Positions 1 to 15,559 of a stretch of 64,000 nucleotides of DNA are shown one piece after another. The stretch's first letter is position 1; the number at the start of each line of letters is the position of its first letter. The stretch is from Bacteroidaceae bacterium (GTDB lineage Bacteria > Bacteroidota > Bacteroidia > Bacteroidales > Bacteroidaceae). A program made the position numbers and the translations under genes. The stretch lies in assembly GCA_017451645.1 (NCBI GenBank), contig JAFTNZ010000030.1, forward strand, positions 124,001 through 188,000, read 5' to 3'. The notes under the pieces were generated by a model. That model was not told where the DNA came from. It worked only from the letters and a program-made list of their open reading frames with translations, and did not search any database.

Positions 1-214
1 CTATTTTTTTCTTATCAATTTCCAATTTGTTCGATTCTGTGATTGGTTCAGATATTGCCTCCAAGTCATAAAACATATCTTTTACTTTTCTTTCTGCCTT
101 TGACAATTCCATATCAGAATTGCTTGAAGCCACCAGTAAAGTATAGCACACTATACACAGAATCATTGTAATGGTTTGTTTGAATCTGTGCTTCTTTGTT
201 TGTCCTTTATTCAT
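1..214 (-). CDS. Partial membrane-anchored or secreted protein, cut by window edge
   Basis: This gene reads leftward and has no stop before the window edge; 71 residues are visible. It starts MNKGQTKKHRF, then has a hydrophobic stretch at about residues 13-30 that could be a signal or membrane anchor, then a polar Lys/Glu-rich segment. Its ATG overlaps the stop of the gene at 207-977 by 8 bases, so it is translationally coupled to it and belongs to the caspase operon. The family is not recognised. The coding call rests on the open frame, the overlap and the N-terminal hydrophobic segment. Confidence 0.6.
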   Translation of the reverse strand, partial: MNKGQTKKHRFKQTITMILCIVCYTLLVASSNSDMELSKAERKVKDMFYDLEAISEPITESNKLEIDKKKI

Positions 215-1792: not shown

Positions 1793-1802
1793 AGATGTAG
1801 TT

Positions 1803-2441
1803 TTACCAATCTGTTTTGATTTTGATATCTCCTAATTGAATAAGCCAATAATCTTTTTCACCATTGGGGGTGTCGATAGTGCGCTTCTCGACATAAATGG
1901 TTACCTGTTTGGCATCTACATCATTAACAACAAGTTTTCCATCTCTAGTAGCTCGAAAAGCTTGTATAAAGTAAGCACTTCCAACGTACTTCCCGTTTCC
2001 AAGATGATGCAATCTCTTATTGATACGAACTGCGGAGCAGGTATCAACCTCTACATGTTGATAAGGAAGAGCCATCAATCTTCTCAAATATCTCTTCATG
2101 GGCTGTGGCCTATTGGCACGCCCTCTAGACGTGGTTTGCATTGTCACCGCATCATGCCATCTCCAATTGCCAGCTTGGTCTTTATATTCGTAATTTTCTC
2201 CTTTACCTATAAAAAGTTCCAGAGCTTGATCTATATAATGATAAGCCAATTCTTTCTCTTCAGCAGACTTGTCGCTTTTAGCTGCAATATTAGGTAAATA
2301 AGAGAGAAAATCATTTATCTTCATTATCACATTTTGTTCAATGTATTCTCTCTCTTCTTCTGTCATTAATTGAGTTTGCGCCTTAATGCCTCCTGCTGTA
2401 ATGAACAGCAAGAACAAAAGTATTAGTTTGTTCGTCTTCAT
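1803..2441 (-). CDS. Secreted hypothetical protein
   Basis: A 212-residue protein with a signal peptide (MKTNKLILLFLLFITAGGIKAQ). The mature N-terminus is helical and acidic (MTEEEREYIEQNVIMKINDF). The central part has basic segments (RGRANRPQPMKRYLRRLM) and the C-terminal third looks like beta strands (GKYVGSAYFIQAF, KQVTIYVEKR, KDYWLIQLGDIKI). The fold resembles a small NTF2- or lipocalin-like periplasmic domain, which is only an impression. It starts 5 bases after the caspase gene stops, so the two are co-transcribed and may be functionally linked. Confidence 0.7.
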   Translation of the reverse strand: MKTNKLILLFLLFITAGGIKAQTQLMTEEEREYIEQNVIMKINDFLSYLPNIAAKSDKSAEEKELAYHYIDQALELFIGKGENYEYKDQAGNWRWHDAVTMQTTSRGRANRPQPMKRYLRRLMALPYQHVEVDTCSAVRINKRLHHLGNGKYVGSAYFIQAFRATRDGKLVVNDVDAKQVTIYVEKRTIDTPNGEKDYWLIQLGDIKIKTDW

Positions 2442-2445
2442 ATAC

Positions 2446-3594
2446 TTATCTTATTTCGCTTATTTCCAAATAATTATATTTTCCGCCTGATGTTTTGGTT
2501 GCATGTACGACATTGATACCCTTCACTGTTTTACTTAGTGCAAGTGCTTTCAAGTACTGAGATATGTTTTTGACTCCAACCTTTGTGGTAAGATTTCCGC
2601 CAAGCATGATAACTTGAGTTTCATTTTCAAAATACCTGTTAACGATTCCATTTACCATATTTAAACGTTCAGTATGACTGTATATAGGATTGACGATTTG
2701 CTTAAACACACCACTTAATTCGTTGTCTCCGACTGAAATAACTACCGGAGCCGGATTAGTAGGAGTTGGAACTACAGTTGTATTTGAGTTACTTAGCGTA
2801 TTGAGAGATACGTTATAAACAGGTTCTTGATCCCCATTGGTAGATGCCAACGTACCTTTCTTGGTAGCTTTCATAAGGGCTTCCCAATCTGCTGTGCCGT
2901 TTTTGTACTCAATGTTGTATATTTCATCCCAAAATGCCATAGAAAAGCATCCGCCTTCTTTGGGACCAAAAGAAACTTGTCCACGCTTACTACTTGTAGC
3001 GATAACTGTACCTTGGCTCTCGAAGAATAATTTCCTCAACTTTTGTGCGTTGATGTCATCTGTATTAGGTTCTCTACCATCTGACGCAACCAAGCCTTTT
3101 ACAGAGACCCAATCGGCTTCATTGTTACAGCAGTCAGTCAATATGATACACAGTCTTGCTCCTTTTTGAGCCAACTTATCTCTAACCCACGTGACAGGTA
3201 CGAATTTGTCTTGTTCATAGGACTTGTAATTCAAACACATCTGGGGCAACCAGCCATCCGCAGGGTCTGCTTTTGCATGAACTCCATGCCCAGTGTAATA
3301 GAAAAATATGACATCATTGGGATTACAACGTAATCCTGATACAGCACTTTCCAAATTAGGTTTGCTGCATTCTTTTCCTGTATAGACATTGTACCAATCC
3401 ACTTCACAACCTGTAGCGACTTCTATAATGCCCAATTGTTCTACAAATCGTCTTTGGTCATTCAGACAACTTTCGCCAATCGATTCGTCATCCGTATTAC
3501 AAAATGCAATTGCATGAATCTTAACATTCTCAGCTTTGGCTGCTGTGCAAAAGCCAATACAAATCAATATTGCTGTAAATAATATTCTTTTCAT
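2446..3594 (-). CDS. Secreted caspase-family (C14-like) cysteine protease
   Basis: A 382-residue protein with a signal peptide (residues 1-21, ending AKA). The caspase p20 core follows: strand KIHAIAFCNT near residue 25, the histidine motif YYTGHGVH with His103, and the cysteine motif LTDCC with the catalytic Cys at 155 or 156 (156 aligns with the usual D-[AS]-C). Thus the dyad is intact. A Pro/Thr-rich linker (about residues 275-285) leads to a roughly 100-residue C-terminal domain of unknown type. Secreted caspase-fold proteases occur in Bacteroidota, where they usually cleave after basic residues; the substrate here is unknown. The surrounding secreted proteins and lipoproteins may be substrates, inhibitors or anchors. 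Confidence 0.88.
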   Translation of the reverse strand: MKRILFTAILICIGFCTAAKAENVKIHAIAFCNTDDESIGESCLNDQRRFVEQLGIIEVATGCEVDWYNVYTGKECSKPNLESAVSGLRCNPNDVIFFYYTGHGVHAKADPADGWLPQMCLNYKSYEQDKFVPVTWVRDKLAQKGARLCIILTDCCNNEADWVSVKGLVASDGREPNTDDINAQKLRKLFFESQGTVIATSSKRGQVSFGPKEGGCFSMAFWDEIYNIEYKNGTADWEALMKATKKGTLASTNGDQEPVYNVSLNTLSNSNTTVVPTPTNPAPVVISVGDNELSGVFKQIVNPIYSHTERLNMVNGIVNRYFENETQVIMLGGNLTTKVGVKNISQYLKALALSKTVKGINVVHATKTSGGKYNYLEISEIR

Positions 3595-3597
3595 AAC

Positions 3598-4140
3598 TTA
3601 TCTGATTTTGTCTAAAGCATCACCTAATAACATCTTACAATAACGTTCCATCAAACGTTTGTTTGAGTAATTCCAATTTCCCAGTTTCTTATCATCATAC
3701 ATGATTGTCCAACTGAAATTGGACAAAGAAACAATCACATGAGCAACCTGCTTTTTCTTTTCAAAGCAGAGTTCAATGCATGGAACATAAGGGGCACGTA
3801 CCTTTACTGAATCTTGTCCGTAGTTCTCTTCGTCAGCTAACAAAGTGAATTGCAAAATACCAATTTCTTCGTCGTTAAGTTTGGCAATAAGAGAGTCACG
3901 CACATAGTGAGGTTCAAGTTCACAATCACCCTTTTCTACTGTTGCTTTCCCTTTTATAGTGTAACACGTTACTTTTTTGGGGCTAAACAATACATCAGAA
4001 ACCGTTTTCCCCAGATTACAATACACAGCAGAGTCAGGTTGGATGCTGTATATTGCCATTTTTTCATGAAGGCTTTGGCATGATACCAACGAAGGGATAG
4101 AGCAAAGTATCCCAAACAAAAACAAAATTTGCTTCCTCAT
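3598..4140 (-). CDS. Putative lipoprotein
   Basis: A 180-residue protein whose N-terminus (MRKQILFLFGILCSIPSLVSCQ) ends in a lipobox-like LVSC, so it is probably lipidated and held in the periplasm or at the outer membrane. The rest is a mixed alpha/beta domain with paired cysteines (PYVPCIELCFEKKK) and a C-terminal helix (NKRLMERYCKMLLGDALDKI). It ends 3 bases before the caspase start. No family is recognised. Its position next to the protease would suit an inhibitor or presenter, with no direct evidence. Confidence 0.7.
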   Translation of the reverse strand: MRKQILFLFGILCSIPSLVSCQSLHEKMAIYSIQPDSAVYCNLGKTVSDVLFSPKKVTCYTIKGKATVEKGDCELEPHYVRDSLIAKLNDEEIGILQFTLLADEENYGQDSVKVRAPYVPCIELCFEKKKQVAHVIVSLSNFSWTIMYDDKKLGNWNYSNKRLMERYCKMLLGDALDKIR

Positions 4141-4144
4141 AATC

Positions 4145-4540
4145 CTAATCTTTTATTGTTATCAATTCAGTGTGATTTGTACGTAAAAAAGTTTCATCAT
4201 ATCCGGGAACTTCGTATTTTATGATTACGGAGAAGGTATGTTTTCCGGCAGGTTTGTCTTTCAAACGTACCCCAAATGGACATACTAACTCATTCTTTAC
4301 CGTACCGATAACTATGTTTCCCAATCGGCAGTCAATCTTCTTGACATCCGTTCCTGTAATCAGAGAATCTTGAAGAATAGTGACACATCCATATAGTGAA
4401 TCCCCATTATGATATTGGAACAATGAATCGTTAAATTCAACTTTATAAGATATTGGAGGGCTAAAATCTTTATCGTCCTCACATCCTGACAAAATGCCAA
4501 GTATCATCAAACAGCATGTAATACAATTAATTGCTTTCAT
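4145..4540 (-). CDS. Small lipoprotein with Ig-like beta domain
   Basis: A 131-residue protein with a convincing lipoprotein signal (ILGILSGC, Cys20) followed by an Asp-rich tether (EDDKDFSPP). The mature part is a chain of beta strands with the feel of a single Ig-like or carbohydrate-binding-like domain (YKVEFNDSLF, KHTFSVIIKYEVPGYDETF). It ends 4 bases before the next start. No specific family is recognised. Confidence 0.7.
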   Translation of the reverse strand: MKAINCITCCLMILGILSGCEDDKDFSPPISYKVEFNDSLFQYHNGDSLYGCVTILQDSLITGTDVKKIDCRLGNIVIGTVKNELVCPFGVRLKDKPAGKHTFSVIIKYEVPGYDETFLRTNHTELITIKD

Positions 4541-4558
4541 ACACTTACACAGTTAAAG

Positions 4559-5380
4559 TTATTCAAAAAGAGAAAATGTCCATCGTAAACTAAAATTCAT
4601 ATCATTATTGGAAAAATTCGCATAAGGATACCAGAAACCGCCATCAGGAGTGTAGTCCTTATTAAAGAGGTCATAGTTGGCCATGTCCATACATACCATA
4701 ATGGCTTGTCTTCCTTCGGCCAATTGTATACCTACAGCATAAGACGTGCGCATTCCATTATTAAGTTGATTGATATCGCTACCGTTAGGACCTTTGTACT
4801 TTATGTTATGAACATATGTTGTTCCTAATTCAAAAATCGGACACCAATCATATTCGTCCATCAAGAACCTCAAAGGAGATATTCGAACGCCAATTCCCAT
4901 TTGAAGACTTTGGATCCTATGCTTATTGTAATTCAAATCTCCTAAGAAACGCAGTTTGTACTGATTCAGACAATATGCTCCATATACATATGCTCCAATC
5001 GGGGACTCAGCACCTTGCCATCCAAATTTCAATCCAGCTTCAATGTTGTTAAACAAATCATAAGCGGTAAAACCATAAGGATTGCTATTCTTTACGTCTA
5101 AAGATTCTCCGTTATCTTTCATACTCATATATGATATGTCCACAGGAACCCAGTCTGCCGTTGCAGCACCTTCTGTCGCATACGCTATAGGAACGTTTAC
5201 CAATAGCTTGGCATACTCCAATATATTATGAGTAATAACATGGTTACTTCTTGTGTATAAACCGAAAATCCAAGGATTATCTTGCCCTATAGCTGTCGGG
5301 ACAAAGGCTACTATGAAGACAAACAGCGCAACCAATCTTTTTTTATCAAAGAATTGCAAAGATTTCAACATTCGAGTCAT
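4559..5380 (-). CDS. Envelope protein, paralogue of the 207-977 product
   Basis: A 273-residue protein with an extended basic N-terminus and a signal peptide (RLVALFVFIVAFVPTAIG, then Q). It carries the motif NPYGFTAYDLFNNIEAGLKF, matched in the 256-residue paralogue, and the QLNNG...YAVG motif, and ends in FSLRWTFSLFE. A terminal Phe-x-aromatic strand is typical of outer-membrane beta-barrel proteins, so a small barrel or porin-like protein is the best guess. It is the first substantial gene of the caspase operon. An 18-base gap separates it from the lipoprotein that follows. Confidence 0.75.
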   Translation of the reverse strand: MTRMLKSLQFFDKKRLVALFVFIVAFVPTAIGQDNPWIFGLYTRSNHVITHNILEYAKLLVNVPIAYATEGAATADWVPVDISYMSMKDNGESLDVKNSNPYGFTAYDLFNNIEAGLKFGWQGAESPIGAYVYGAYCLNQYKLRFLGDLNYNKHRIQSLQMGIGVRISPLRFLMDEYDWCPIFELGTTYVHNIKYKGPNGSDINQLNNGMRTSYAVGIQLAEGRQAIMVCMDMANYDLFNKDYTPDGGFWYPYANFSNNDMNFSLRWTFSLFE

Positions 5381-5395
5381 GATAGTGGGATTTTA

Positions 5396-5590
5396 TTAAA
5401 TTGCATAAACATTTGTATTGACAGGAGATGCATCTCCATGCACACTAAAATCTTTGACACTAAATGAGTGGACATTTTTTTCATTCAAGACTGTCCTACA
5501 AATATACGGAATTTCTGTGATTGGGCTCACACTAAACAATTGACCCATAATAAGCCAATCAATTCCCAACAATCGTGTTCTTTTTTCCAT
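5396..5590 (-). CDS. Small ORF at the head of the caspase operon (uncertain)
   Basis: A 64-residue frame beginning MEKRTRLLGIDWLIMGQLF and ending in a polar tail. It has an A-rich upstream region like other Bacteroidota genes and lies 15 bases before the first envelope gene, directly after the structured leader RNA. No homologue family is recognised and composition alone cannot prove translation. It could instead be untranslated leader. Confidence 0.35.
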   Translation of the reverse strand: MEKRTRLLGIDWLIMGQLFSVSPITEIPYICRTVLNEKNVHSFSVKDFSVHGDASPVNTNVYAI

Positions 5591-5630: not shown

Positions 5631-5828
5631 TTGCTCTTCCTTTTGGCAAATAAAAAAAGCGCAGCCTTCGTCGTATTCCGCTCAGGCCTACCACAGCCTT
5701 CATAATCCTACAGAGAAGTCTGCGCCTATGCGCATAACTCCTACGGATTATGAAATGCTCGATTTTCCTGTATCAAGGTGGTAGTTTGAGCGGAAATAGA
5801 GCAATAAAATGTCTTGTACTCATAAAGT
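5631..5828 (-). ncRNA. Structured leader RNA, copy 1 (five conserved helices, pseudoknot)
   Basis: Between the promoter and the first gene the minus-strand transcript can form nested helices (plus-strand coordinates): A 5799-5804/5631-5636, B 5787-5795/5676-5684, C 5778-5784/5688-5694, D 5745-5754/5699-5708. A fifth pairing, E 5715-5725/5659-5669, reaches from the D loop to a site beyond B and is followed by seven Us (5652-5658). E crosses D, C and B, so it is either a pseudoknot or an alternative terminator-like state. The second copy (11118-11369, plus strand) has the same helices in the same order with different bases in B, C and D, which is strong evidence for selection on structure. No promoter motif lies between this RNA and the genes, so a cis-acting 5' leader is the simplest reading. 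I cannot assign it to a named RNA family. Confidence 0.75.
5773..5823 (-). other. 16-codon ORF inside leader RNA copy 1
   Basis: An ATG about 5 bases after the expected transcript start opens MSTRHFIALFPLKLPP and then a stop. Its 3' half forms the 5' arms of helices B and C, so ribosome movement could alter folding as in leader-peptide attenuation. The peptide is not conserved in the second RNA copy, which argues that RNA structure rather than peptide sequence is selected. Confidence 0.3.
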
Positions 5829-5834
5829 ACGGTG

Positions 5835-5865
5835 CAAATGTACGGAAAGTTTTTTGATTTGCAAT
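5835..5865 (-). promoter_or_regulatory. Promoter of caspase operon
   Basis: On the minus strand, -7 box TACATTTG (5835-5842) matches the Bacteroidota TAnnTTTG consensus, with a TTG-type -33 element (ATTG, 5862-5865) 19 bases upstream. Transcription should start near 5828, giving a leader of about 240 bases that contains the structured RNA. Confidence 0.7.
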
Positions 5866-6238
5866 ACTAAAATCAAAAATAAATCAATTTGCAAAGAAAA
5901 TAACGTGCATAAATAGTTATAAGGGAGATTTTATAAATTTGTTTCTTCGTTTATTTGGGAAGGTTGTCTGCTTGGACGATATGCTTGTCTTTTTGGCCTT
6001 TTCTTTCTTATCTTTCTTATTTCTTTGATACGTAGCTCGCTACGCATCTTTGTAGATAAGAAGGAAAATCCTCAAAAATCAGAAGCAGATCCTCGCAAGC
6101 TAATTTATAGATCCTCCCTAAAATGAAATATAAACCCGTGTTAATCCGTGTCATCCGTGCCTGAATTTATTTTTGACACCCTCATTGCGGAAATATGGGG
6201 TTTTGGAAGTGATTTTTTTCTGAACTCCCTCCCCCCCC
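5866..6238. other. Intergenic region, 373 bases
   Basis: AT-rich and without a convincing gene on either strand. It contains a short perfect palindrome around 6031-6044 (CGTAGCTCGCTACG) flanked by partly complementary arms (ttatctttctta / gtagataagaagg), which may be a terminator-like hairpin, and a C-rich run near 6229-6236. Confidence 0.5.
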
Positions 6239-6457
6239 TTACGGCTCCCCCAATGCATCCACAATGAGGCGCACCTGATAGGGGGTGTATTCCTTGCTGC
6301 GCAGGGTGAGGCCGCTGCGGTGCAGGGCATCGCGCAGCTCCGGATTCCGCAGAATCCATGTCTGCAACTTCTTGCAGGCGGCACGCTCCCCCACCGTGGG
6401 GGCATAGAGTCCCGCCAATTCACTTTTTCCATAGGTTCGGAAGACAAATTTTTCCAT
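6239..6457 (-). CDS. DUF4248 family protein
   Basis: A 72-residue protein that reads as a complete DUF4248: N-terminal RTYGKSELAGLYAP, central LQTWILRNPELRDAL and C-terminal YTPYQVRLIVDALGEP. Members are small basic proteins found beside HU-like DNA-binding proteins in Bacteroidales, often near capsule or mobile regions; their function is not established. It is divergent from the HU-like gene here. The helical layout and family context suggest DNA binding or an accessory role in the cassette. Confidence 0.85.
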   Translation of the reverse strand: MEKFVFRTYGKSELAGLYAPTVGERAACKKLQTWILRNPELRDALHRSGLTLRSKEYTPYQVRLIVDALGEP

Positions 6458-6472
6458 CGTCGTAATTTTCTG

Positions 6473-6504
6473 TAAAGGTACTGAATTTTGCTGAGATAAA
6501 CAAG
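6473..6504 (-). promoter_or_regulatory. Probable promoter of the DUF4248 gene
   Basis: Minus-strand TACCTTTA (6473-6480) is one base off the TAnnTTTG consensus, with CTTG (6501-6504) 20 bases upstream, 16 bases ahead of the gene start. Confidence 0.5.
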
Positions 6505-6590
6505 TTTTTTTCTAAGGAATTGTCCGGTAAATTGTAAAGTTTATAGAACCTCCCGTAAAGAAATAGGTGTAATCTTCCAAACGAACTTTT

Positions 6591-6630
6591 TCGAACCGGT
6601 CGGAACCGTTCGGAACGGTGTGGAACCATG
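6591..6630. repeat. Four 10-bp phased repeats
   Basis: Four consecutive decamers (tcgaaccggt, cggaaccgtt, cggaacggtg, tggaaccatg) share the core CGGAACCG. The 10-bp period places each unit on the same helix face, a pattern expected of a cooperative protein-binding site between the divergent DUF4248 and HU-like genes. Confidence 0.55.
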
Positions 6631-6656
6631 CGGTCATTTCTGCTTTCTGCATGTCG

Positions 6657-6664
6657 TACCTTTG
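6657..6664 (+). promoter_or_regulatory. -7 element for the HU-like gene
   Basis: TACCTTTG matches the Bacteroidota -7 consensus, 111 bases before the HU-like ATG. No good -33 box is visible, so the promoter may need an activator such as a protein binding the phased repeats just upstream. Confidence 0.5.
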
Positions 6665-6679
6665 CATTGTCTTTCGGAA

Positions 6680-6740
6680 AGAATGGTAATCTTAGTGCAC
6701 AAAGAATGCTATTCTTATCACCGGAAGAATGGTAATCTTA
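6680..6740. repeat. Three palindromic iterons, 23-bp period
   Basis: AGAATGGTAATCTTA at 6680-6694 and 6726-6740, with AGAATGCTATTCTTA exactly between at 6703-6717. Each unit is a near-palindrome (AGAAT....TTCTT). The even spacing lies downstream of the -7 box in the HU-like gene's leader, which suits an operator or a DNA-bending site, possibly autoregulatory. Confidence 0.65.
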
Positions 6741-6774
6741 TTTTATTAACAAACCTATTAAAAACTGTACGATT

Positions 6775-7356
6775 ATGATTAATTATTCCATTGTGATGCG
6801 CCGTAAGAATCTGGCCGACAAGGAGAGTGAGAAGCTGGCTTATGCCACCGCTCAGTACAACAGTGTGATGACCCTCGACAAGTTTGCCGCACACATCGCC
6901 TCGCATGGCAGCGTGTATAGCCGTGCCGACATTGCTGCAGTGCTGACGCTGGCCGTCGATTGCCTGCACGAGCAGCTGCTGGCGGGCCAGAAGATAGAAT
7001 TGGGCGACTTGGGAGCCTTCTGCATCAGCCTGAACTGCACGGGTGCCGATAGTGCCGAGACGTTCGACCCCAGCGTGAACGTGAAGCGGGTGAAGGCCCG
7101 CTGGGAGATGGGCGACAAGTTTCTGAACCTGACGGAAGAGGCCGAGTTCAACCTCGTGGCCAACCGCGCCACACAGGCCGCTGTGCTCCGTGCCATCAAG
7201 GCGGGCGACACCACCGTGACGCTTGTGACGGGAACGGGTGGCACGGCTTCCGACTCCGGCTCTGACGCAGGCAACACCGATGCAGGAAACTCTGATGCCG
7301 GCAACACCGGCACAGGCAACACCGGCACAGGTGGCGACGACAGCAATCCGCTGTAA
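6775..7356 (+). CDS. HU-like DNA-binding protein (DNABII family)
   Basis: A 193-residue protein of the Bacteroidales HU-like family. The N-terminal 130 residues contain the family landmarks: INYSIVMRRK start, YATAQYNSVMTLDKFAAHIA, and the beta-arm region KIELGDLGAFCISL. The C-terminal 40 residues are a low-complexity Gly/Asp/Asn/Thr/Ser tail built from GNTDAGNSDAGN-type repeats, probably disordered. It should bind and bend DNA. It heads the smalltalk and amidase genes and sits downstream of three palindromic iterons. Codon use is GC-rich compared with the flanking AT-rich operons, which fits a cassette of different origin. Confidence 0.85.
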   Translation: MINYSIVMRRKNLADKESEKLAYATAQYNSVMTLDKFAAHIASHGSVYSRADIAAVLTLAVDCLHEQLLAGQKIELGDLGAFCISLNCTGADSAETFDPSVNVKRVKARWEMGDKFLNLTEEAEFNLVANRATQAAVLRAIKAGDTTVTLVTGTGGTASDSGSDAGNTDAGNSDAGNTGTGNTGTGGDDSNPL

Positions 7357-7408
7357 TATCCTGTGACTGGTGAACAGCGGCCGGTGACAACTTCGATGGA
7401 ACCAGTAA

Positions 7409-7453
7409 CTATCCACTATCCACTATCAACTATCAACTATCCACTATCAACTA
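7409..7453. repeat. Six tandem heptamers CTATC(C/A)A
   Basis: Six copies of a 7-bp unit (CTATCCA or CTATCAA) fill the space between the HU-like and smalltalk genes. Such short arrays are prone to slippage and could vary between strains. Confidence 0.7.
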
Positions 7454-7469
7454 ATTTATTTACACCATC

Positions 7470-7589
7470 ATGTCATTAGAAGAAAACAAAAAAGAGAACA
7501 TTTGGGGTACGGTGCTCCGTATAGTCGTAACCGTGTTGACTGCCCTTGCCACTTCGTTAGGTGTGGTGAGCTGTGCGCAACCTTTTTGA
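7470..7589 (+). CDS. Smalltalk protein
   Basis: A 39-residue ORF: charged N-terminus (MSLEENKKENIWG), one hydrophobic segment (about residues 14-33) and a cysteine near the end (VVSCAQPF). This is the layout of the small Bacteroidales smalltalk family, always found between HU-like and amidase genes. The Cys could be a lipidation site or the segment a single transmembrane helix. Function is unknown; position next to a cell-wall amidase suggests a holin- or anchor-like role, which is inference. Confidence 0.8.
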   Translation: MSLEENKKENIWGTVLRIVVTVLTALATSLGVVSCAQPF

Positions 7590-7598
7590 GAAATGTAA

Positions 7599-8144
7599 AT
7601 GAAGCAGATTATGTTTGAAAAAATTACACTCAACGACCCCGCATTCAATATGCGGGGTTTCCCCTCCCCTTCCCTCTTCCTTACGGGAGGTGAAGCGAAG
7701 GATGAAGAAAAGGTGGCGGTGCCCGGCAGGCGCTCCGTTTCCCTCGCCGTCATTCACTGCTCCGCCACGCTGCCAGGGCAGCAGGTGACGGTGCAGGATA
7801 TTGACAGATGGCATCGCCTGCGGGGATTCGATTCGATAGGCTATCACTTCTACATCACCGTAGATGGCAGCATCTGCATTGGCCGTCCTCTGAGTCGGGC
7901 GGGTGCCCATTGCAAGGGGTTCAACGCCCACTCTGTAGGCATCTGCTACGAGGGCGGACTGGATGCGGAGGGACACCCCAAGGACACGCGCACGCTGCTG
8001 CAGAAGGCAGCCCTTGTGGCTCTGCTGAACAAGTTGAAAGAAATTTACCCCGCGATGGATGTCGTAGGACACTGCGACCTCAACCCCCACAAGGCATGCC
8101 CCTGCTTCGATGCCAAAAGGGAATATGCCACTTCTGCCACCTAA
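7599..8144 (+). CDS. N-acetylmuramoyl-L-alanine amidase (Amidase_2 type)
   Basis: A 181-residue amidase with no signal peptide. Zinc-ligand motifs of the amidase-2/PGRP fold are present: VIHCSAT (first His), HRLRGFDSIGYHFYI (second region) and GHCDLNPHKACPCFD (third His and final Cys/Asp). It cleaves the MurNAc-L-alanine amide bond of peptidoglycan, with a T7-lysozyme-like fold. Part of the HU/smalltalk/amidase unit; lack of a signal suggests release by another protein or lysis, as for phage endolysins. Its last codons form the left arm of a large inverted repeat. Confidence 0.88.
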   Translation: MKQIMFEKITLNDPAFNMRGFPSPSLFLTGGEAKDEEKVAVPGRRSVSLAVIHCSATLPGQQVTVQDIDRWHRLRGFDSIGYHFYITVDGSICIGRPLSRAGAHCKGFNAHSVGICYEGGLDAEGHPKDTRTLLQKAALVALLNKLKEIYPAMDVVGHCDLNPHKACPCFDAKREYATSAT

Positions 8145-8265
8145 CGCGTGAAAAAGGCTTATAACGTGCGTGTGGGCGTAGAAAATTGTTAAAATTGGTA
8201 AAACCTATGCCCGCACGCGCGCGTATTACATATATTTTCACGCGTAAGTGGCAGAAGTGGCATAT
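8123..8265. repeat. Large inverted repeat closing the amidase gene
   Basis: 8123-8154 and 8235-8265 are reverse complements over about 31 bases with one small bulge and a single mismatch. Inside lies a second inverted pair (8164-8181 with 8205-8222). The left arm includes the amidase's last codons. The whole could form a cruciform or a very stable transcript hairpin between convergent genes, acting as a two-way terminator. Confidence 0.8.
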
Positions 8266-8339
8266 GAGCTACGAATTGTTAGCTACAGCTACAAGTCCTC
8301 CATCCGAATGGTCACCAGTCACTCGCAGCTCGTAACTAA

Positions 8340-8606
8340 TCACTCATTCATCACCTCTTCCCTCAGTTTGGCGGCCAGTGCGAGCAGCAGTTCCTGCTGT
8401 CGGGCAGCCGGGTGCAGGCTGATGCACCGGAAGACGACCCGCAGGTAGTTGTGCAGGTTGCCGTTCTCTCCCGCTGCCACTTGGCGGTAGATGCGTTCGG
8501 ACATGCCGATGTCGCGACACAGCCTGCGCACCGACAGTTTGCAGTCGTCTTGTTTCTTACTCTTTACCGTCACACTGCGGCGGAGCTTGTCCGCCCAAGA
8601 ACCCAA
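8340..8606 (-). CDS. Small HTH-like protein, start uncertain, possible frameshift
   Basis: As an uninterrupted frame it gives 88 residues from a TTG. Residues around CRDIGMSERIYRQVAAGE look like a helix-turn-helix. An ATG at 8632-8634 with an A-rich leader opens MKNLKKLPTIG in another frame, and it would join this frame (at GSWADKL) if one T were removed from the T pair near 8601 (GGGTTCTTGG on the minus strand). Either the true start is the TTG or the gene has a one-base frameshift close to its start. It lies between the amidase and primase genes, convergent with the former and divergent from the latter; a regulator role is plausible. Confidence 0.6.
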   Translation of the reverse strand: MGSWADKLRRSVTVKSKKQDDCKLSVRRLCRDIGMSERIYRQVAAGENGNLHNYLRVVFRCISLHPAARQQELLLALAAKLREEVMNE

Positions 8607-8663
8607 TTGTGGGTAGCTTTTTTAAATTCTTCATACGGTTGTTTGTTAAAATTGTAAAATATA

Positions 8664-8681
8664 CGTCACTCATGGGTGACG
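8664..8681. promoter_or_regulatory. Palindromic operator candidate between divergent genes
   Basis: CGTCAC-tcatgg-GTGACG is a perfect 6+6 palindrome lying between the small HTH-like gene and the primase/helicase gene, adjacent to the likely plus-strand promoter. Confidence 0.5.
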
Positions 8682-8687
8682 CACTGA

Positions 8688-8719
8688 TTTGCAAAGTACA
8701 GCGTTTTTCCTCAATTTTG
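8688..8719 (+). promoter_or_regulatory. Probable promoter of primase/VapE gene
   Basis: TTTG (8688-8691), 20-base spacer, CAATTTTG (8712-8719; one base off TAnnTTTG), 46 bases before the ATG. Confidence 0.55.
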
Positions 8720-8765
8720 CAAGCGAATCAGTCAAAAAAACTGAAACTTAAAAAACAAACATCGT

Positions 8766-10901
8766 ATGGAACTCCAACTGTTTCGTGGCTACACCGAATG
8801 CCGCCCCACATCCGTCACTATCGAAGAAGTCGTTGACCTGATCCGCAACGACGAGTCGCTCACCAACCTGACCCTGCGCCACCGCCTGCAGCTGCAGCAG
8901 CGCGGCACATCGCACGCATCGACCGCCGACAAACGGTCGTCGCCCTGCATAGCCGCTGCCGTGCGCTTCAGCGGTGGAAAGAGGCGCGAACACATCGTGG
9001 CATGGACAGGACTGTCGCTGGTGGACATCGATCAGGTGGAGGCCGGGAAGATGCCCCTCCTGCTCGACCTGATACGGCACGACCCGCACACCCTGCTGGC
9101 CTACACCACCATCAGCGGACAGGGGGTGCGAATCCTCTACCGGTGGCAGCTGAGGCAGGGTGAGGCCATGGACACCGGCAATCCGTCGGCACCGGAGAAC
9201 CTGCGCATCTACCTCCGGGCCTTCCAGGCCGGCAACACTCACTATGCCGGGCTGTTGGGGATGGAGACCGACGGGCAGTGCAAGAATGCCACCCGCCTGT
9301 GCGGACTGGCACACGATGCCGGGGCATACTACAACCCGGATGCACAGCCCTTCGAGCTGACGGTGGAGCGGAAACTGAAGGGACGGAACGGACGGAGCCA
9401 TACCCTGCAGCAGGTGTTGCCCGTGGTGAAGGGCGAACTGGCCGAGGCGGGCATCGTGTACAGGGCCGGACACCGCAACGAATACATCAGCCGTATGGGC
9501 TACCTGATGAACCTCTACGGGGTGGCTTTGGAGGAACTGACGGAATGGGCTGTGGGTGAGTTTGCCGACTACCGCGACGATGTGGCGGGCATCTTGCGCT
9601 CGTGCTATACCCACACCGACGAGCACGGCACGCGCCGCTTGTCGCGCAAGCAGAAGGAGACACCGGAGGACGAACGTCCGCTCTATCCCACCGTGGAGGA
9701 CATAGCCCGCCGGCTGACCGAACGGGGCGACTACCGCTACAATGTCATCACCGGCAAGTGCGAACACCGTCCGCACCCCGGCGCAGGGGACGAGGCGGAA
9801 GACTGTCCGGAGGAGGATGGATGGCGACCGATAGACAACCGTTTTGTGCACTCGGTGTGGAGAGACCTGGCCAACAACTTCAGGATGGTGCGCACGCAGG
9901 ACATACACCAGATGCTGATGTCGGAGTTTGTGCCCCCGTTCAACCCTTTCGAGCAGTACTTCGCCGGGCTGCCTGCCTGGGACGGACAGACCGACTACAT
10001 TGCTCAGGTGGCTGCTACCGTAGAGACCTGCCCCAACGAGGATGAGGAGGACGACGTCACCTTCGAATGGGCCTTCCGCAAATGGATAGTGGCTCTGGTG
10101 GCCGGACTGTTCGACCGCGATAAGGTGAACGAAGAGATACTGGTGCTCGTGGGCAAGCAGGGCACCTACAAGACCACCTGGCTCAACCACCTGCTTCCAC
10201 CCGTGCTGCGTAGCTATTTCCACACGAAGACCGACTGCGGGCGGTTCGACAAGGACGACAAGCTGGCACTGGCGGAGTTTGCCATCATCTGTCTGGAGGA
10301 GATTGAGGCCATGCGCCCCAACGAGCTGAACCAGCTGAAGTCGCTGGTGACTGAAAAGCAGATCAACGAACGCCCCGCCTATGCGCACTACAAGGAGGAG
10401 CGTACGCACATCGCTTCGTTCTGCGGCACGAGCAACAACCGGCAATTCCTCAACGACGAGAGCGGCGAACGGCGCTGGCTCGCCTTCAGCGTGGAGAAAA
10501 TCTGCAGTCCGCACGACCATCCGCTGCCCTACGAGGGACTCTATGCGCAGGCATACCACCTGTGGCGGGAGGGATTCAACTACTGGTTCGAAGGAGAGGA
10601 AATAGAGAGGCTGAACCGCCATGCACAGGCATTCCAGGTGCCCGACCTGGCCTATGAACTCATCCACACGCATTACCGTGTGCCTGTGCCCGGCGAGAAG
10701 GCGCTCTTCGTCACCACGGCAGACATTGTGGCCCGCATCAGCTATGCCTTCAAGGTGGCACCGTCGGCACACCTCATCTGCCCCATCATGTTGGAGGCCG
10801 GCTTCAAGATGGTGCGGCGTGCCAACCGGCGTGGCTACCTGGCCGTCGTCCTCAACAACGACCAGATAGAGGCTTCCCGCCGCCTGCTGGCCACGGTGTA
10901 G
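8766..10901 (+). CDS. BT4734-type primase-like / VapE P-loop helicase-like protein
   Basis: A 711-residue two-part protein. Residues 1-300 match the BT4734/BF3469 N-terminal family (primase-like start, GLSLVDIDQVE, YTTISGQGVRILYRW). Residues 390-650 are a virulence-associated-E ATPase: Walker A GKQGTYKT at 463-470, Walker B IICLEEIEAM, then ITE-like SLVTEKQINERPAYA and sensor segment CGTSNNRQFLND with Arg fingers (GERRWLAF). Such proteins are replication initiators or helicases of phage and satellite elements. It is the usual partner of HU/smalltalk/amidase cassettes. GC-rich codon use contrasts with the operon that follows, pointing to independent origin. Confidence 0.85.
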   Translation: MELQLFRGYTECRPTSVTIEEVVDLIRNDESLTNLTLRHRLQLQQRGTSHASTADKRSSPCIAAAVRFSGGKRREHIVAWTGLSLVDIDQVEAGKMPLLLDLIRHDPHTLLAYTTISGQGVRILYRWQLRQGEAMDTGNPSAPENLRIYLRAFQAGNTHYAGLLGMETDGQCKNATRLCGLAHDAGAYYNPDAQPFELTVERKLKGRNGRSHTLQQVLPVVKGELAEAGIVYRAGHRNEYISRMGYLMNLYGVALEELTEWAVGEFADYRDDVAGILRSCYTHTDEHGTRRLSRKQKETPEDERPLYPTVEDIARRLTERGDYRYNVITGKCEHRPHPGAGDEAEDCPEEDGWRPIDNRFVHSVWRDLANNFRMVRTQDIHQMLMSEFVPPFNPFEQYFAGLPAWDGQTDYIAQVAATVETCPNEDEEDDVTFEWAFRKWIVALVAGLFDRDKVNEEILVLVGKQGTYKTTWLNHLLPPVLRSYFHTKTDCGRFDKDDKLALAEFAIICLEEIEAMRPNELNQLKSLVTEKQINERPAYAHYKEERTHIASFCGTSNNRQFLNDESGERRWLAFSVEKICSPHDHPLPYEGLYAQAYHLWREGFNYWFEGEEIERLNRHAQAFQVPDLAYELIHTHYRVPVPGEKALFVTTADIVARISYAFKVAPSAHLICPIMLEAGFKMVRRANRRGYLAVVLNNDQIEASRRLLATV

Positions 10902-10932
10902 CTGTCCTTGTCTCGTCCGTATCCGCATCTGG

Positions 10933-10953
10933 AAAAACAAAGGGCATGCCCAT
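10933..10953. repeat. Short copy of the island-flanking repeat
   Basis: A 21-base stretch (core ACAAAGGGCATGCCCAT) identical to the start of the longer repeats at 18733-18789 and 27081-27135. GGGCATGCCC is itself a perfect palindrome. It follows the primase gene and precedes the GTPase operon. Confidence 0.7.
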
Positions 10954-11076
10954 CTATGAGAGCCTATTGCTGTTTTTACTTTCTTGTCGAAAAGTTACGG
11001 AGAATAATCCCATTAATAGCCTTCATGACCACTCTCCTGCTAAAATCGCATAAATTTTAGTACTTTTTCAGGGTAA

Positions 11077-11110
11077 TTGATGGTAAAACAAAGTTTTTTT
11101 TGTAATTTTG
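11077..11110 (+). promoter_or_regulatory. Promoter of GTPase operon leader
   Basis: -7 box TAATTTTG at 11103-11110 with a TTG at 11077-11079; the spacing of 23 bases is longer than the usual 19-21. Transcription should start near 11117, just before the structured RNA. No TAnnTTTG motif is seen between here and the first gene at 11528. Confidence 0.6.
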
Positions 11111-11117
11111 CTGCGTG

Positions 11118-11369
11118 TTCTTGGGAATACATGACATATTTGCTCAAATTCTCCATTCGAATTAGCACCTCAATATTGAGAAAGAGAGCATTACCTAACT
11201 GCATTTGGAGTGTGCGCATAAGCGTAGACTTCAACCATAGCAGTTAGGGGCCGTGCTAAGCCTGAATGGAGATATGGATGAAAGCCTGCGCTTTTCTTTT
11301 GCCCAAAAGTTAGTGCAGATGCCAACCGGAAAAACTTAAGTACTAACCAACAGGCAATGAGCAAATATG
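11118..11369 (+). ncRNA. Structured leader RNA, copy 2
   Basis: Helices: A 11135-11145/11359-11369 (11 bp), B 11150-11158/11264-11272 (9 bp), C 11162-11168/11253-11259 (7 bp), D 11194-11202/11240-11248 (9 bp), and crossing pairing E 11222-11232/11280-11291 followed by a U-rich tract (11292-11300). Order and spacing match copy 1 closely: D to E is 19 bases and D' to C' is 4 bases in both. The E arm keeps the near-identical core GCGCATA(A/G)GCG(T/C)AGACTTC and the same unpaired A, while B, C and D have changed on both sides. An insert of about 45 bases before A' is unique to this copy. A 38-codon frame from 11131 overlaps it but is not conserved in copy 1. Confidence 0.75.
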
Positions 11370-11426: not shown

Positions 11427-11482
11427 AGAAAGTCCTCAACGTTCTGCCAAACGGCAGACGTTGACGGACTTTCTGTGTTTTT
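11427..11482 (+). terminator. Strong hairpin terminator between leader RNA and GTPase operon
   Basis: Arms 11427-11448 and 11453-11474 pair over about 22 bases (AGAAAGTCC...CTGCC with GGCAG...GGACTTTCT) around a 4-base loop, followed by a T-rich tail (11478-11482). It ends the leader RNA 45 bases before the first gene. With no second promoter visible, operon expression would require readthrough, so this may be an attenuator. Confidence 0.8.
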
Positions 11483-11527
11483 GAATATGAGTAAATAACA
11501 ATATTAACAACTTAAAATCAAATTAAA

Positions 11528-12577
11528 ATGAAGACTGAGAATCTTAAAAATTGGGGGGCGTTCATTGCCTTCTTAATCTTGGCAGCTATCAGTTGCTGGG
11601 CAACAGAGCATTCATTTCACTTGCTGATTAAGTGGATGCCAGAACCTTTTGTATGGGGTCTTACAATCGCCTTCTTTATTGTTGCCTCGTATGGTACTAA
11701 AATGATTGTTGATGCACTCAACAAGGATTTGTGGATGGATCACCGCCGCCGAACTTTCTGGATTGGGGTAGTACTTGCGTTAATCTTTTGGCTGCTAATG
11801 AGTATGCCGACAAACACTCATACTTTCTTCTACAATCATAATATTGGAAATAAAGTACAGGAAGACTTGGCTACGACAAGTACGTATCTTGAGCAAATCA
11901 AGTCAAGGAAGAATGTTGATTCAGCATATTTTGTAGTCCATGATGACGTTCAAAAGAAGTTTACAGATCTGACAAATGAATTTGATGGAATTGGGAAAAG
12001 CGGGAAAAAGGGCAGTGGCGAATATGTTCGAGAAATCTTACGCAGCATCAATGAGGTTTTGGAAAAAGAACTCTCAGGGTCTTCTGTGAAGTTCAATGAT
12101 GCTGCATGGAACAAGTTTGACCCACATGTACTCTCCAATTATGAGAATCAGATGAATCGTGCTTTGGAGCAAATTAAAGACCAAAACTACAAGGTTTCCA
12201 AAACGGCTGCTGCCGAAGCTGCTGAGGATATTCGCAAAATAGGACTCATGACAGATACAATCAAAGTCATGGTAGAGACTGGCAGTATACATGAGGATGT
12301 CATCACACAAGCAGAGGGGGTAATCCTCAGTGGATATACATGTGTTAAGAATAATCAGAAATATGTAAAGTTCGACAATCAGAAAGACAAGAAACTCTAT
12401 ACGGCTGAAAATCTGGAAACCAATACGAAGCGAATGCTGTCTGTTATAGATGTATGGATAGACTTCTTCAAAGGAAAGTACCCCATTTCATTCCTTTTTT
12501 ATGTACTTCTGTCTATCCTTGTAGATGTGGCAGCATTTATATTCTTTGATTTTGCCTTCAAGAAGAGAGAAAACTAA
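11528..12577 (+). CDS. Multi-pass membrane protein of the GTPase operon
   Basis: A 349-residue protein with three N-terminal transmembrane segments (about 9-28, 40-60, 76-93), a hydrophilic helical middle of about 220 residues (NKVQEDLATTSTYLEQIK onward) and a fourth segment near the C-terminus (about 320-342), ending FKKREN. The large middle domain is probably periplasmic or cytoplasmic as one unit. No family is recognised. It is the first gene of a five-gene operon, 25 bases before the GTPase gene, and may be the membrane receptor or effector the GTPase controls. Confidence 0.75.
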   Translation: MKTENLKNWGAFIAFLILAAISCWATEHSFHLLIKWMPEPFVWGLTIAFFIVASYGTKMIVDALNKDLWMDHRRRTFWIGVVLALIFWLLMSMPTNTHTFFYNHNIGNKVQEDLATTSTYLEQIKSRKNVDSAYFVVHDDVQKKFTDLTNEFDGIGKSGKKGSGEYVREILRSINEVLEKELSGSSVKFNDAAWNKFDPHVLSNYENQMNRALEQIKDQNYKVSKTAAAEAAEDIRKIGLMTDTIKVMVETGSIHEDVITQAEGVILSGYTCVKNNQKYVKFDNQKDKKLYTAENLETNTKRMLSVIDVWIDFFKGKYPISFLFYVLLSILVDVAAFIFFDFAFKKREN

Positions 12578-12602
12578 TCATTAACATTAAAGTATTAAAA
12601 TC

Positions 12603-13538
12603 ATGGAACTGAATCCCCAACTTGGTACGGTTTCTAATGAAGAAACCAAGCCTGCAACAACGGAAACAAAAATTGAGACCCCCATTGTTAGTTCAACTAC
12701 AAATACAAATGATGAACCACAGGTGTTAGGTCTGACAAAGGAAGAAACCAAAGACCCCAATGAGATTAGTATAACGATAGCTGATAAAAGCACCCCTATC
12801 GTTGTTCTTTTTGGCCCACCATCTTGCGGAAAGACAATGACGCTTGTCCGTTTGACTCGCTACTTGCGCACAATTGGCTTCAAAGTTGAACCAATTACTT
12901 CATTCCGTCCTTCAGCTGACGAGCATTACGCAAAAATGTGCAAAGACTTTCCGGGAATGATTGGAAGTAGCGATGCTGCAAACAGTACAAAGAACATCAG
13001 CTTCATGCTTGTGCGTGTCCTTGACTCCGTTGGCCGGGTAAAATGCCAAATACTTGAAGCTCCCGGCGAATATTATTATAATCCGGATGACCCCGATGAG
13101 CCTATGGCAAATTTCCCAAGATACGTTAATGCCATCAAGAACAGTAGCAACAGAAAGATTTGGTGCTATATGGTAGAGCCTAGTTGGAAATATGCCGATC
13201 AAAGCGCGAATTATGTTACAAAGATTCACAGGCTGAAACACAATATGCGTCCTACTGATAAAGCAATCTTCATTTTTAACAAGATAGACCTTACCTCCTT
13301 TGTCATATCTCCAGGACAAGTAAATTTGAAATCGGCAAGGAAAGAAATTGAAGATCTCTATCCGGGCATCTTTACACCTTTCAGAGCAAAGGGGGTTTTC
13401 GGAATTTCGGATAATTTTGAGTTAGTTCCATTCCATACGGGTGACTATAGCAAGAAAATTGCCGGCGGTTACTCTTTCCAAGAGGGCCCTGCCGAATATC
13501 CGGAGAAGTTGTGGGATACCATTAAGTCCATGATATGA
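12603..13538 (+). CDS. P-loop GTPase-like protein
   Basis: A 311-residue cytoplasmic protein. A Thr/Glu-rich disordered N-terminus (1-60) precedes the nucleotide-binding domain: P-loop GPPSCGKT at residues 71-78, a switch-like EAPGEYYYNP in place of the usual DxxG, and a guanine-specificity motif NKID at 226-229 (IFIFNKIDLT). This combination marks a TRAFAC-type GTPase of the kind that anchors predicted bacterial conflict systems with GTPase-associated proteins; the assignment to that class is inference. The two coiled-coil membrane proteins downstream would be its partners. Confidence 0.8.
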   Translation: MELNPQLGTVSNEETKPATTETKIETPIVSSTTNTNDEPQVLGLTKEETKDPNEISITIADKSTPIVVLFGPPSCGKTMTLVRLTRYLRTIGFKVEPITSFRPSADEHYAKMCKDFPGMIGSSDAANSTKNISFMLVRVLDSVGRVKCQILEAPGEYYYNPDDPDEPMANFPRYVNAIKNSSNRKIWCYMVEPSWKYADQSANYVTKIHRLKHNMRPTDKAIFIFNKIDLTSFVISPGQVNLKSARKEIEDLYPGIFTPFRAKGVFGISDNFELVPFHTGDYSKKIAGGYSFQEGPAEYPEKLWDTIKSMI

Positions 13539-13552
13539 TAAAAGGGTAGCTT

Positions 13553-15037
13553 ATGAATGTCGAATTTCAAATACACGGTGTCTTGTCTTCTGGCCAGAAA
13601 ACATGGAAGCAGGAGGACAGAGACTATTATACACAATTTTATAGCGACCAAACGGAGGATGTCTTGATGATTGTTGAGGTTGTAAACCGTCCTCATGGTA
13701 TCTCAACCTATTACAATTATCTCCGAAATAACAATATTCTGTCAGCAAGAGTTGGGTCATATTTCGGTATGACTATGAGAATAGACGGTGCATTTTGTAG
13801 AGATGTGAAGAGTATCTACATGATGCTTGACAATCTTTTCAATAAGATGATGGTTGGCTCTTTACTTATTGCAAAAGGAGATAAATATGAATATGCCATT
13901 GATTCCTTCGATGCTCAAAATGATTATCTGTCACAAGTCGAAAGGCAATTCTCCAATATGCTAAATGCTTTTTGTTCGCCCCAAGATTTCTTTGAAATCT
14001 CGTCGGCATACATATCACAAGGCACAAAGCTAAGTGTGAATGCATCGGAAATCACAATTCCTACGGCTGTAGAAACAATCAAGCAAAGAGCCAAGCTATA
14101 TCTTTCTCCGACATATCAGTCTAAAGCTGCGCAAAAGAAAATCGCTGATGCAAAAGCAGAGGCTGATGCTGCTGTTGCTGATGCGAATGCGAGGATTCGA
14201 GCTGCAGAAGATGCTCACTCTAAATCCAAGCAAAGGCAAGAACGGGAATACGAGAATTGGGAGAAAGAGAGACAGTCTCTTGAAGAAGCAAGGAATGCCG
14301 CAATCAAAGATTACGAAGAATTAGAGGAAAAAATGCGGAAGGCAGGGCTGGACACTTCCATAAATGCTAAAATCTCGGAAATCAAAGAACCTTTAATACA
14401 ACTGGCAGGCCTTGTGGCCGGGCGATTTCAAGAAGATACTTACGGAAATGTTCAGTATGAGTCTCAATGTCATAAAAAAGATAGCAAAAAAGATAAACTC
14501 CAAGTTTGGCTTCCTTGGGCTATTTGCATTCTTCTTGGTATTGTTCTTGTTTGCACTATATGGTATATGGACAGTGCTAAAAATACTGATCAGTCTGATA
14601 CTATAAAGAAGCAATCTGAAAAGATTGAACAATTAGAGGATTCTGTCAGAAAAATGTCCAATCAGTCTGACATTATAAAGAAGCAATCTGAGAAGATTGA
14701 ACAATTAGAGAATTCTATCAGAAAAATGTCCAATCCCATAGGAGCAATGGAACAGCAAGTTAAAGTAGAAGAACCTGTAAAATACAATTTGGCAAAACTA
14801 CGTATTAACATCAAAGAATTAGCGGTACGTGCAGGAGGCTTGACTGTAGGTTCTACCTATACTTGCGAGATTACTGGTGGAGATTATCCGAAGGACGGCT
14901 ATTGGGTTATTTATGAGGGAGAGAATAGGATACCGGGAAATGTTTTCACAGTTTCTTCTCCCTCAGGGACACAAGTAAAAATAACATATTACAAAGGAAC
15001 AGATGTTATCAAAGAAAGAACTATAAAGGTGTTGTAA
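13553..15037 (+). CDS. Membrane-anchored coiled-coil protein with Ig-like C-terminus
   Basis: A 494-residue protein. Residues 1-180 form a globular domain of unrecognised type (MNVEFQIHGVLSSGQ start), possibly the GTPase-contacting part. Residues 200-275 are a charged coiled coil rich in Ala, Glu and Lys. A single transmembrane segment follows at about 320-341 (WAICILLGIVLVCTIW). Beyond it a 24-residue heptad unit occurs twice in tandem, then an Ig-like beta domain ends the protein. N-in orientation would put the unknown domain in the cytoplasm with the GTPase and the Ig-like domain outside. It resembles the 15560-16891 product in layout. Confidence 0.75.
   Translation: MNVEFQIHGVLSSGQKTWKQEDRDYYTQFYSDQTEDVLMIVEVVNRPHGISTYYNYLRNNNILSARVGSYFGMTMRIDGAFCRDVKSIYMMLDNLFNKMMVGSLLIAKGDKYEYAIDSFDAQNDYLSQVERQFSNMLNAFCSPQDFFEISSAYISQGTKLSVNASEITIPTAVETIKQRAKLYLSPTYQSKAAQKKIADAKAEADAAVADANARIRAAEDAHSKSKQRQEREYENWEKERQSLEEARNAAIKDYEELEEKMRKAGLDTSINAKISEIKEPLIQLAGLVAGRFQEDTYGNVQYESQCHKKDSKKDKLQVWLPWAICILLGIVLVCTIWYMDSAKNTDQSDTIKKQSEKIEQLEDSVRKMSNQSDIIKKQSEKIEQLENSIRKMSNPIGAMEQQVKVEEPVKYNLAKLRINIKELAVRAGGLTVGSTYTCEITGGDYPKDGYWVIYEGENRIPGNVFTVSSPSGTQVKITYYKGTDVIKERTIKVL
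14591..14734 (+). repeat. 72-bp tandem duplication within coiled-coil gene
   Basis: 14591-14662 and 14663-14734 are nearly identical and encode two 24-residue units (core KKQSEKIEQLE, then RKMSN). The in-frame unit lengthens the periplasmic stalk by a fixed amount; copy number may vary between strains. Confidence 0.9.
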
Positions 15038-15038
15038 A

Positions 15039-15557: not shown

Positions 15558-15559
15558 GC

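Follow-up and report, generated by a model that had tools for sequence, protein, structure and literature searches.

Relation to described leader RNAs

To our knowledge, few regulatory RNA classes have been assigned in Bacteroidota. Attenuators of the trp type follow a strand logic in which the pairings 1:2 and 3:4 alternate with the pairing 2:3, the terminator being followed by a U tract. Terminating riboswitches are structured 5' leaders with conserved unpaired bases in which antiterminator and terminator are exchanged, a single class serving many genes. The RNA class described here, found as two leaders within a window of 64,000 nucleotides from a Bacteroidaceae genome (contig JAFTNZ010000030.1), is probably a cis-acting transcription attenuator that is widespread in Bacteroidota. 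It displays the same 1:2, 2:3 and 3:4 strand logic as trp-type attenuators, with the terminator and its U tract, but differs from them in the lack of a common leader peptide among those listed, in the extra wrap-around helices B and C and in the many unrelated genes, mostly coding for exported proteins, that it precedes. Similarly, the features of terminating riboswitches listed above are common to this class and, as far as the excerpts of PMC10043782 go, to orphan riboswitch candidates; in contrast to riboswitches, its conserved unpaired bases are few (GAA and ACCUC) and it stands outside Rfam.

Flavo-1 (RF01705) is likewise a Bacteroidetes motif, presented in excerpts of PMC9723704 as widespread and partly located in 5' regions, but its model comprises only 76 positions. 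It was absent among the Rfam hits for the window and 37 loci, and a search of the genome from which the window derives gave no Flavo-1 match (0/1), the 14 control genomes being silent too. The DUF805 and DUF805b RNAs (RF03081 and RF02914) are cis-regulatory and sometimes share a leader with the present class, although they are short separate elements positioned past the U tract, outside its fold. A DUF805 RNA above cut-off lies at L137:1780-1845, about 125 nt past the copy in that locus, while two DUF805b matches, both scoring below cut-off, follow copies at L143:1727-1765 (about 28 nt past the copy) and L146:1-31; these elements and the attenuator may work in one leader. In a search of Rfam release 15 at the gathering score with the window, both leaders and 37 distinct loci, no family covered a copy, and both leaders taken down to an E value of 10 gave chance-level matches only, such as BTnc231 (13.6 bits, cut-off 80.4).

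The fold is not described in the portions available of the literature searched, which included PMC8040213, PMC2864571, PMC7366714, PMC10043782 and PMC9723704. PMC8040213 reports 3161 candidates and PMC9723704 64 structured 5' regions; since supplementary lists fell outside the literature search, an earlier unnamed prediction is possible. Within these bounds the class is new to Rfam release 15 and was not met in the literature searched. Mobile elements were searched with patterns and single copies only. Copy 2 had no match among plasmids and copy 1 none among phages, and the viral-contig patterns returned 2, 1 and 0 stretches, none of them a member, which gives a phage or plasmid origin no support within that scope.

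The two leaders of the window and the spread of their class

The leaders lie at 5631-5828 on the minus strand (copy 1) and at 11118-11369 on the plus strand (copy 2), as an earlier note on this DNA had placed them. A pairwise alignment of both gives a mean column identity of 77%, and their folding energies are well below those of shuffles, with z values of -5.87 for copy 1 and -6.73 for copy 2 and 0/200 shuffles as low in either case. Both copies present the order B, C, D, E5', D', C', B', E3' and U tract (Table 1). Helix B is formed by TTCCGCTCA/TGAGCGGAA in copy 1 and by TCTCCATTCG/TGAATGGAGA in copy 2, which is a genuine compensatory change, and compensatory changes are also displayed by helix C. 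Helix D differs from copy to copy. The pairing of helix E proved genuine, and it crosses B, C and D in both leaders as had been proposed. A local hairpin, F, uses the 5' strand of E as its own 3' arm; E and F therefore exclude each other. Two further helices, PK1 and H, had been missed earlier, the latter being established by GGC and GCC on either side of C'.

The earlier note had described the same five helices, in the same order, for both copies. This holds for B, C, D and E and for the U tract. Helix A/A', formed by the P0 5' strand with GAGCAAA far downstream, is also present in both window copies but is not family-wide: an exact 6-nt complement at the place of A' occurs in 10/93 copies, with 2.4 expected from shuffles, and A was rejected as a family feature. 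The family-wide partner of the P0 5' strand is GAGCAA immediately 5' of D, with which it forms helix P0.

Table 1 Coordinates of the leaders, helices, promoter boxes and operons in the window
Feature	Position	Paired strands or content	Strand	Basis
Copy 1 Bacteroidetes -7 box	5835-5842	TACATTTG	-	read from sequence
Copy 1 two-state leader RNA	5650-5806	P0 5' strand to U tract	-	R2, 126.1 bits
Copy 1 helix P0 (fold 2)	5755-5804	TTGCTC 5799-5804 with GAGCAT 5755-5760	-	family alignment
Copy 1 helix B (fold 1)	5676-5795	5787-5795 with 5676-5684	-	family alignment
Copy 1 helix C (fold 1)	5688-5784	CTACCAC 5778-5784 with GTGGTAG 5688-5694	-	family alignment
Copy 1 helix D core (fold 1)	5705-5748	5745-5748 with 5705-5708	-	longer D in single-sequence fold
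Copy 1 hairpin F (fold 1)	5717-5739	5730-5739 with 5717-5725	-	family alignment
Copy 1 helix E (fold 2)	5658-5726	5717-5726 with 5658-5667; then U tract 5647-5657	-	
Copy 1 helix PK1 (fold 2)	5671-5713	CTGTA 5709-5713 with TACGA 5671-5675	-	family alignment
Copy 1 helix H (fold 2)	5685-5698	GGC 5696-5698 with GCC 5685-5687	-	family alignment
Operon after copy 1	207-5590	64-aa ORF, six small ORFs, caspase-domain protein	-	
Copy 2 Bacteroidetes -7 box	11103-11110	TAATTTTG	+	read from sequence
Copy 2 two-state leader RNA	11138-11300	P0 5' strand to U tract	+	R2, 132.3 bits
Copy 2 helix P0 (fold 2)	11140-11191	TTGCTC 11140-11145 with GAGCAT 11186-11191	+	family alignment
Copy 2 helix B (fold 1)	11150-11272	11150-11159 with 11263-11272	+	family alignment
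Copy 2 helix C (fold 1)	11162-11259	TTAGCAC 11162-11168 with GTGCTAA 11253-11259	+	family alignment
Copy 2 helix D core (fold 1)	11199-11243	CTGC 11199-11202 with GCAG 11240-11243	+	longer D in single-sequence fold
Copy 2 hairpin F (fold 1)	11209-11230	11209-11217 with 11222-11230	+	family alignment
Copy 2 helix E (fold 2)	11221-11292	11221-11230 with 11283-11292; then U tract 11293-11300	+	
Copy 2 helix PK1 (fold 2)	11235-11277	CCATA 11235-11239 with TATGG 11273-11277	+	family alignment
Copy 2 helix H (fold 2)	11249-11262	GGC 11249-11251 with GCC 11260-11262	+	family alignment
Operon after copy 2	11528-16891	membrane protein first, aspartyl protease last	+	

In the operon after copy 1 most of the six small ORFs have export-like starts, and the caspase-domain protein is encoded at 2446-3594. 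Between the first and last genes of the operon after copy 2 lie those of a P-loop GTPase-like protein and two coiled-coil membrane proteins. Homologues of its first gene are found behind copies in the loci L022 (38% identity) and L034 (36%). A second strong terminator-like hairpin, GAAAGTCC..GGACTTTC, followed by a T-rich stretch, occupies window positions 11428-11483 between copy 2 and this first gene and is preceded by a short ATGAGCAAATATG ORF, an arrangement similar to that in L034. The region between the divergent leaders (6775-10901) codes for HU-HIG, amidase and VapE/BT4734-type proteins.

A covariance model of the two window copies (R1), holding the pairs of B, C, F and part of D, found matches in 96/301 genomes of the same family (E<=1, own genome counted), with up to 7 per genome. 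The 93 copies aligned by sequence alone (alignment A6, in which 60 fetched stretches were added to 29 returned loci and scored) are mostly the better-scoring portion of the R1 matches listed; A6 may thus lean towards the R1 pairs, while no such lean exists towards P0, E, PK1 and H, which are not R1 pairs. A third close copy is located 4.5 kb beyond the window (L051:4001-4176, positions C23:192517-192686 of the own genome). The model made from the 93 copies (R2) gave weak matches, namely in the own genome of the window, in 22/295 genomes of other families of the order (E<=0.001, own genome counted) and in few across the phylum (4/395 genomes, E<=0.01, own genome counted). The distant R2 matches retain, by eye, the order of the parts, and 19 distant copies were aligned. 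With R3, the model built from distant members, 16 matches were obtained in the own genome (E<=0.1), an assembly estimated to be 72.6% complete; together with copy 2 these make 17 places, 5 of which were training sequences of R3, the weakest having an E value of 0.03. In a sample of the phylum R3 found matches in 40/296 genomes (E<=0.01); among these are the own genome and G336, both sources of training sequences. Judged from the matches in this sparse sampling, the class extends to several families within the phylum.

Scanning named genomes with a pattern returned 43 stretches, of which R2 confirms 32 (E<=1e-11). The record titles of all 32 read Bacteroidaceae, Prevotellaceae, Prevotella, Paraprevotella or Bacteroidales, and rumen or gut is the source of many; the remaining 11 stretches are weak, cut off or due to chance. 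An early core pattern with mismatches, applied to the own and related genomes, was discarded, its hits beyond the window copies being judged chance by eye.

Two exclusive folds and a terminator-like end

The helices of the family divide into two sets. In fold 1, helix B surrounds C, within which lie D and, innermost, F; a side hairpin, CUC/GAG, accompanies them. Fold 2 consists of P0 (UUUGCUC/GAGCAAA) and a hairpin in which E encloses PK1 and PK1 encloses H and which ends directly at the U tract. The two sets are mutually exclusive, because one strand serves both F and E and one GAG serves both the side hairpin and P0. An unsupervised scan of A6 for paired columns puts E, C, B, P0, PK1, F and H, in that order, in the top seven places and D in the tenth; two runs ranked above D were disbelieved because they pair with the U tract. 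When A6 is read with F, 93.2% of the cells are paired, compared with 78.1% after shuffling and 31.7-44.1% after sliding, and both sides change in 34/40 pairs. When E replaces F the corresponding values are 93.9%, 80.1% and 33.4 to 42.5%, with both-side changes in 34/43 pairs. The covariation scores of the F and E folds are 0.502 and 0.480, against 0.219 and 0.216 for the shuffled alignments, and 0/500 shuffles scored as high. All seven pairs of helix C are formed in 93/93 copies. The middle position of helix H pairs in only 70/92 cells of A6, which is put down to an alignment offset, and the side hairpin (G) is devoid of covariation support since it hardly varies. The two CUC strands, one in the P0 5' strand and one after C5, complement a single GAG (A6 columns 6-8, 35-37 and 54-56), and a base triple is possible besides competition.

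Each set is also recovered from one of its own helices. Enforcing C alone recovers 537/668 pairs of B, 275/316 of D and 374/422 of F, while enforcing E alone recovers 396/448 pairs of P0, 337/356 of PK1 and 135/185 of H; in the E-enforced fold copy 1 forms 5/5 P0 pairs and copy 2 0/5. In the 19 aligned distant copies the unsupervised scan places C, F, E, B and PK1 on top, and the cells are paired to 85.6% with F and to 84.6% with E and PK1, both folds including B and C, compared with 66.8% and 67.4% after shuffling. Conserved unpaired bases are few; they include GAA between B and C and ACCUC after C5, both of which fall within the P0 loop in fold 2.

The U tract is well preserved, as 87/93 copies carry 6 or 7 U within the 8 nt that follow E3. 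Of the distant copies (R3 matches in fetched loci), 40/45 pair the F3 strand with the arm adjoining the U tract, while 4/45 have no U tract by the rule used and 1/45 lacks the stem. The strand logic was evaluated in 41 distant copies, leaving out the window, L051 and two copies with too short a strand. Compared with permuted strands, own strands pair with energies lower by 11.4 sd for 1:2 (-11.4), 12.5 for 2:3 (-12.5) and 3.9 for 3:4 (-3.9), and similarly F3:E3 stands at -5.1 sd and F5:F3 at -10.0 sd. The control pairs are flat, with -1.0 sd for 1:4, -0.2 for 1:3 and -0.5 for 2:4. As expected of an attenuator, two mutually exclusive folds are each kept by covariation, and in one of them a hairpin runs straight into the U tract.

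The earlier note had left a choice between a pseudoknot and a two-state switch. A single compact pseudoknotted RNA, acting as a sensor, ribozyme or protein-binding element, would contain E, PK1 and P0 together with B, C and D, with F merely a folding intermediate, and would account for the covariation of E, PK1 and P0 and for the way in which they cross B, C and D throughout the alignments used. It is improbable, however, since the helices fall into two nested sets and E and F, both of which covary, occupy the same bases of a common strand. Moreover, in distant members strand 2 has two partners, 1 and 3, and in most copies a U tract terminates the hairpin of E, PK1 and H. Thus, the switch is the favoured half of that choice.

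Equilibrium folding gives the order in which the helices of the switch replace one another. The probability of P0 is 0.94 when the transcript ends after F, 0.95 after D3, 0.28 after C3 and 0.0 after B3, so that P0 is lost by B3, ahead of the synthesis of the last terminator strand. Fold 1 is the best fold in 83/93 copies and fold 2 in 0/93, suggesting readthrough as the equilibrium default. The median energy gap by which fold 1 is favoured over fold 2 is 12.5 kcal/mol and the probability of E at full length is 0.0; termination would thus need kinetics or a factor, with P0 being held or the polymerase moving ahead faster than the exchange.

Promoters, downstream genes and the proposed switch

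A Bacteroidetes -7 box (TAnnTTTG) is located within 90 nt upstream of 83/93 copies, at a median distance of 38 nt, compared with 5/93 shuffled sequences. Downstream, 87/93 copies are followed by a same-strand ORF starting within 135 nt (median 61.5 nt), and one of the 93 has no downstream ORF by the rule used. What is read directly from the DNA comprises both folds, their covariation and the strands that they have in common, as well as the U tract, the promoter boxes and the ORFs that follow. A free-standing, trans-acting small RNA with its own terminator, to which the downstream gene would be incidental, could equally be accompanied by a promoter box and a terminator-like end, and a short terminated RNA would arise anyway. 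Such a small RNA is nevertheless very unlikely to be the function of the class, as the ORFs follow so closely and on the same strand, a conserved antiterminator fold would have no evident use in a pure small RNA and the helix sequences vary widely from copy to copy. A mechanism of the trp operon kind, in which ribosomes translating a leader peptide control attenuation, would match the 1:2, 2:3 and 3:4 topology, and an ORF of at least 6 codons with an ATG, GTG or TTG start runs through the P0 5' strand in 48/83 leaders with a -7 box, but it is very unlikely and was rejected, because the start is ATG in only 22/83, no common sequence exists among the 25 peptides listed and the genes that follow do not belong to a single type of biosynthesis.

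In the attenuator reading, each copy would begin just past its promoter. During transcription strand 1, the P0 5' strand, would pair with strand 2, the P0 3' strand, to form P0, and hairpin F would form; the P0 3' strand adjoins D5 or, in distant members, forms part of it. The emerging C3 and B3 may then displace P0 and build the long hairpin of B, C, D and F, which would occupy the F/E strand. With this strand tied up in fold 1 no terminator would form and the gene would be read (ON). If, in contrast, P0 were kept in place by a ligand, by a protein or through fast transcription, C3 and B3 would remain free and the last strand, composed of PK1' and E3, could capture the F3 strand, and the hairpin of E, PK1 and H with the U tract would then stop transcription (OFF). 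We infer that termination takes place in the cell and that ON and OFF are assigned in this direction, with an effector that would act on P0 or its loop. The GAA and ACCUC segments around C5 are the best candidate effector site.

The proteins encoded downstream are predominantly of exported or membrane type. By a hydrophobicity rule under which membrane proteins count too, a signal-peptide or membrane-like start is displayed by the first protein at 84/101 loci (the 93 plus 8 distant ones), compared with 95/243 background ORFs (39%, or 49% with alternative starts). Lipobox-like motifs occur in 30/99 first proteins and in 25/243 of the background. In the R3 set 23/37 first ORFs pass the export-like test, several being SusC-like by eye, and 6/43 loci gave no ORF. 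For the 86/93 first proteins with 90 residues or more, Pfam matches include BspA-type repeats in 15 and outer-membrane barrels in 4, with many further families of one to three members each. One first protein has an AIPR domain, the L051 copy precedes a 1061-aa SNF2/helicase protein and, among the matches listed from a defence library (25 of 59 families), one member matches DrmD, the hits being in single members. The class therefore precedes BspA-like repeat proteins, lipoproteins and outer-membrane proteins, with defence-like genes in single cases.

The homologues, the covariation on 93 copies and the diversity of the downstream genes strongly support the claim of the earlier note that one RNA class leads unrelated operons, the caspase and GTPase/protease operons being two among many different contexts. 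The procedure it had suggested, a covariance model of both copies followed by a genome search, yielded homologues with covariation, whereas the test against known Rfam families that it had suggested and its refuting case of a mobile-element RNA produced no match, the latter as far as plasmids, phages and viral contigs were covered. Tentatively, the class could be a phylum-wide orphan sensor RNA, present in many copies per genome, through which one signal sets surface and secreted proteins and some defence proteins; a metabolite, a second messenger or a conserved RNA-binding protein would be candidates for this signal. The class provides a switch whose two folds are both readable from covariation. 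It also makes testable which single signal may govern the surface proteome of Bacteroidota living in gut and rumen.

A CRISPR array with 18 listed repeats of 47 nt (RF01362) is located at window positions 47531-48885, and an ORF of 1424 aa at 50342-54616 may be Cas9, as judged by its size and place only. The tracrRNA of this CRISPR was considered for the leaders and rejected, no anti-repeat being found and the longest exact complement reaching 6 nt in copy 1 and 7 nt in copy 2. Elsewhere in the class, an rteR sRNA (L187:42-124; 79.6 bits, cut-off 72) lies about 1.4 kb from an attenuator copy. In the window, a HipA-like protein at 17338-18613 is split into two overlapping ORFs that carry the HipA N and C domains.
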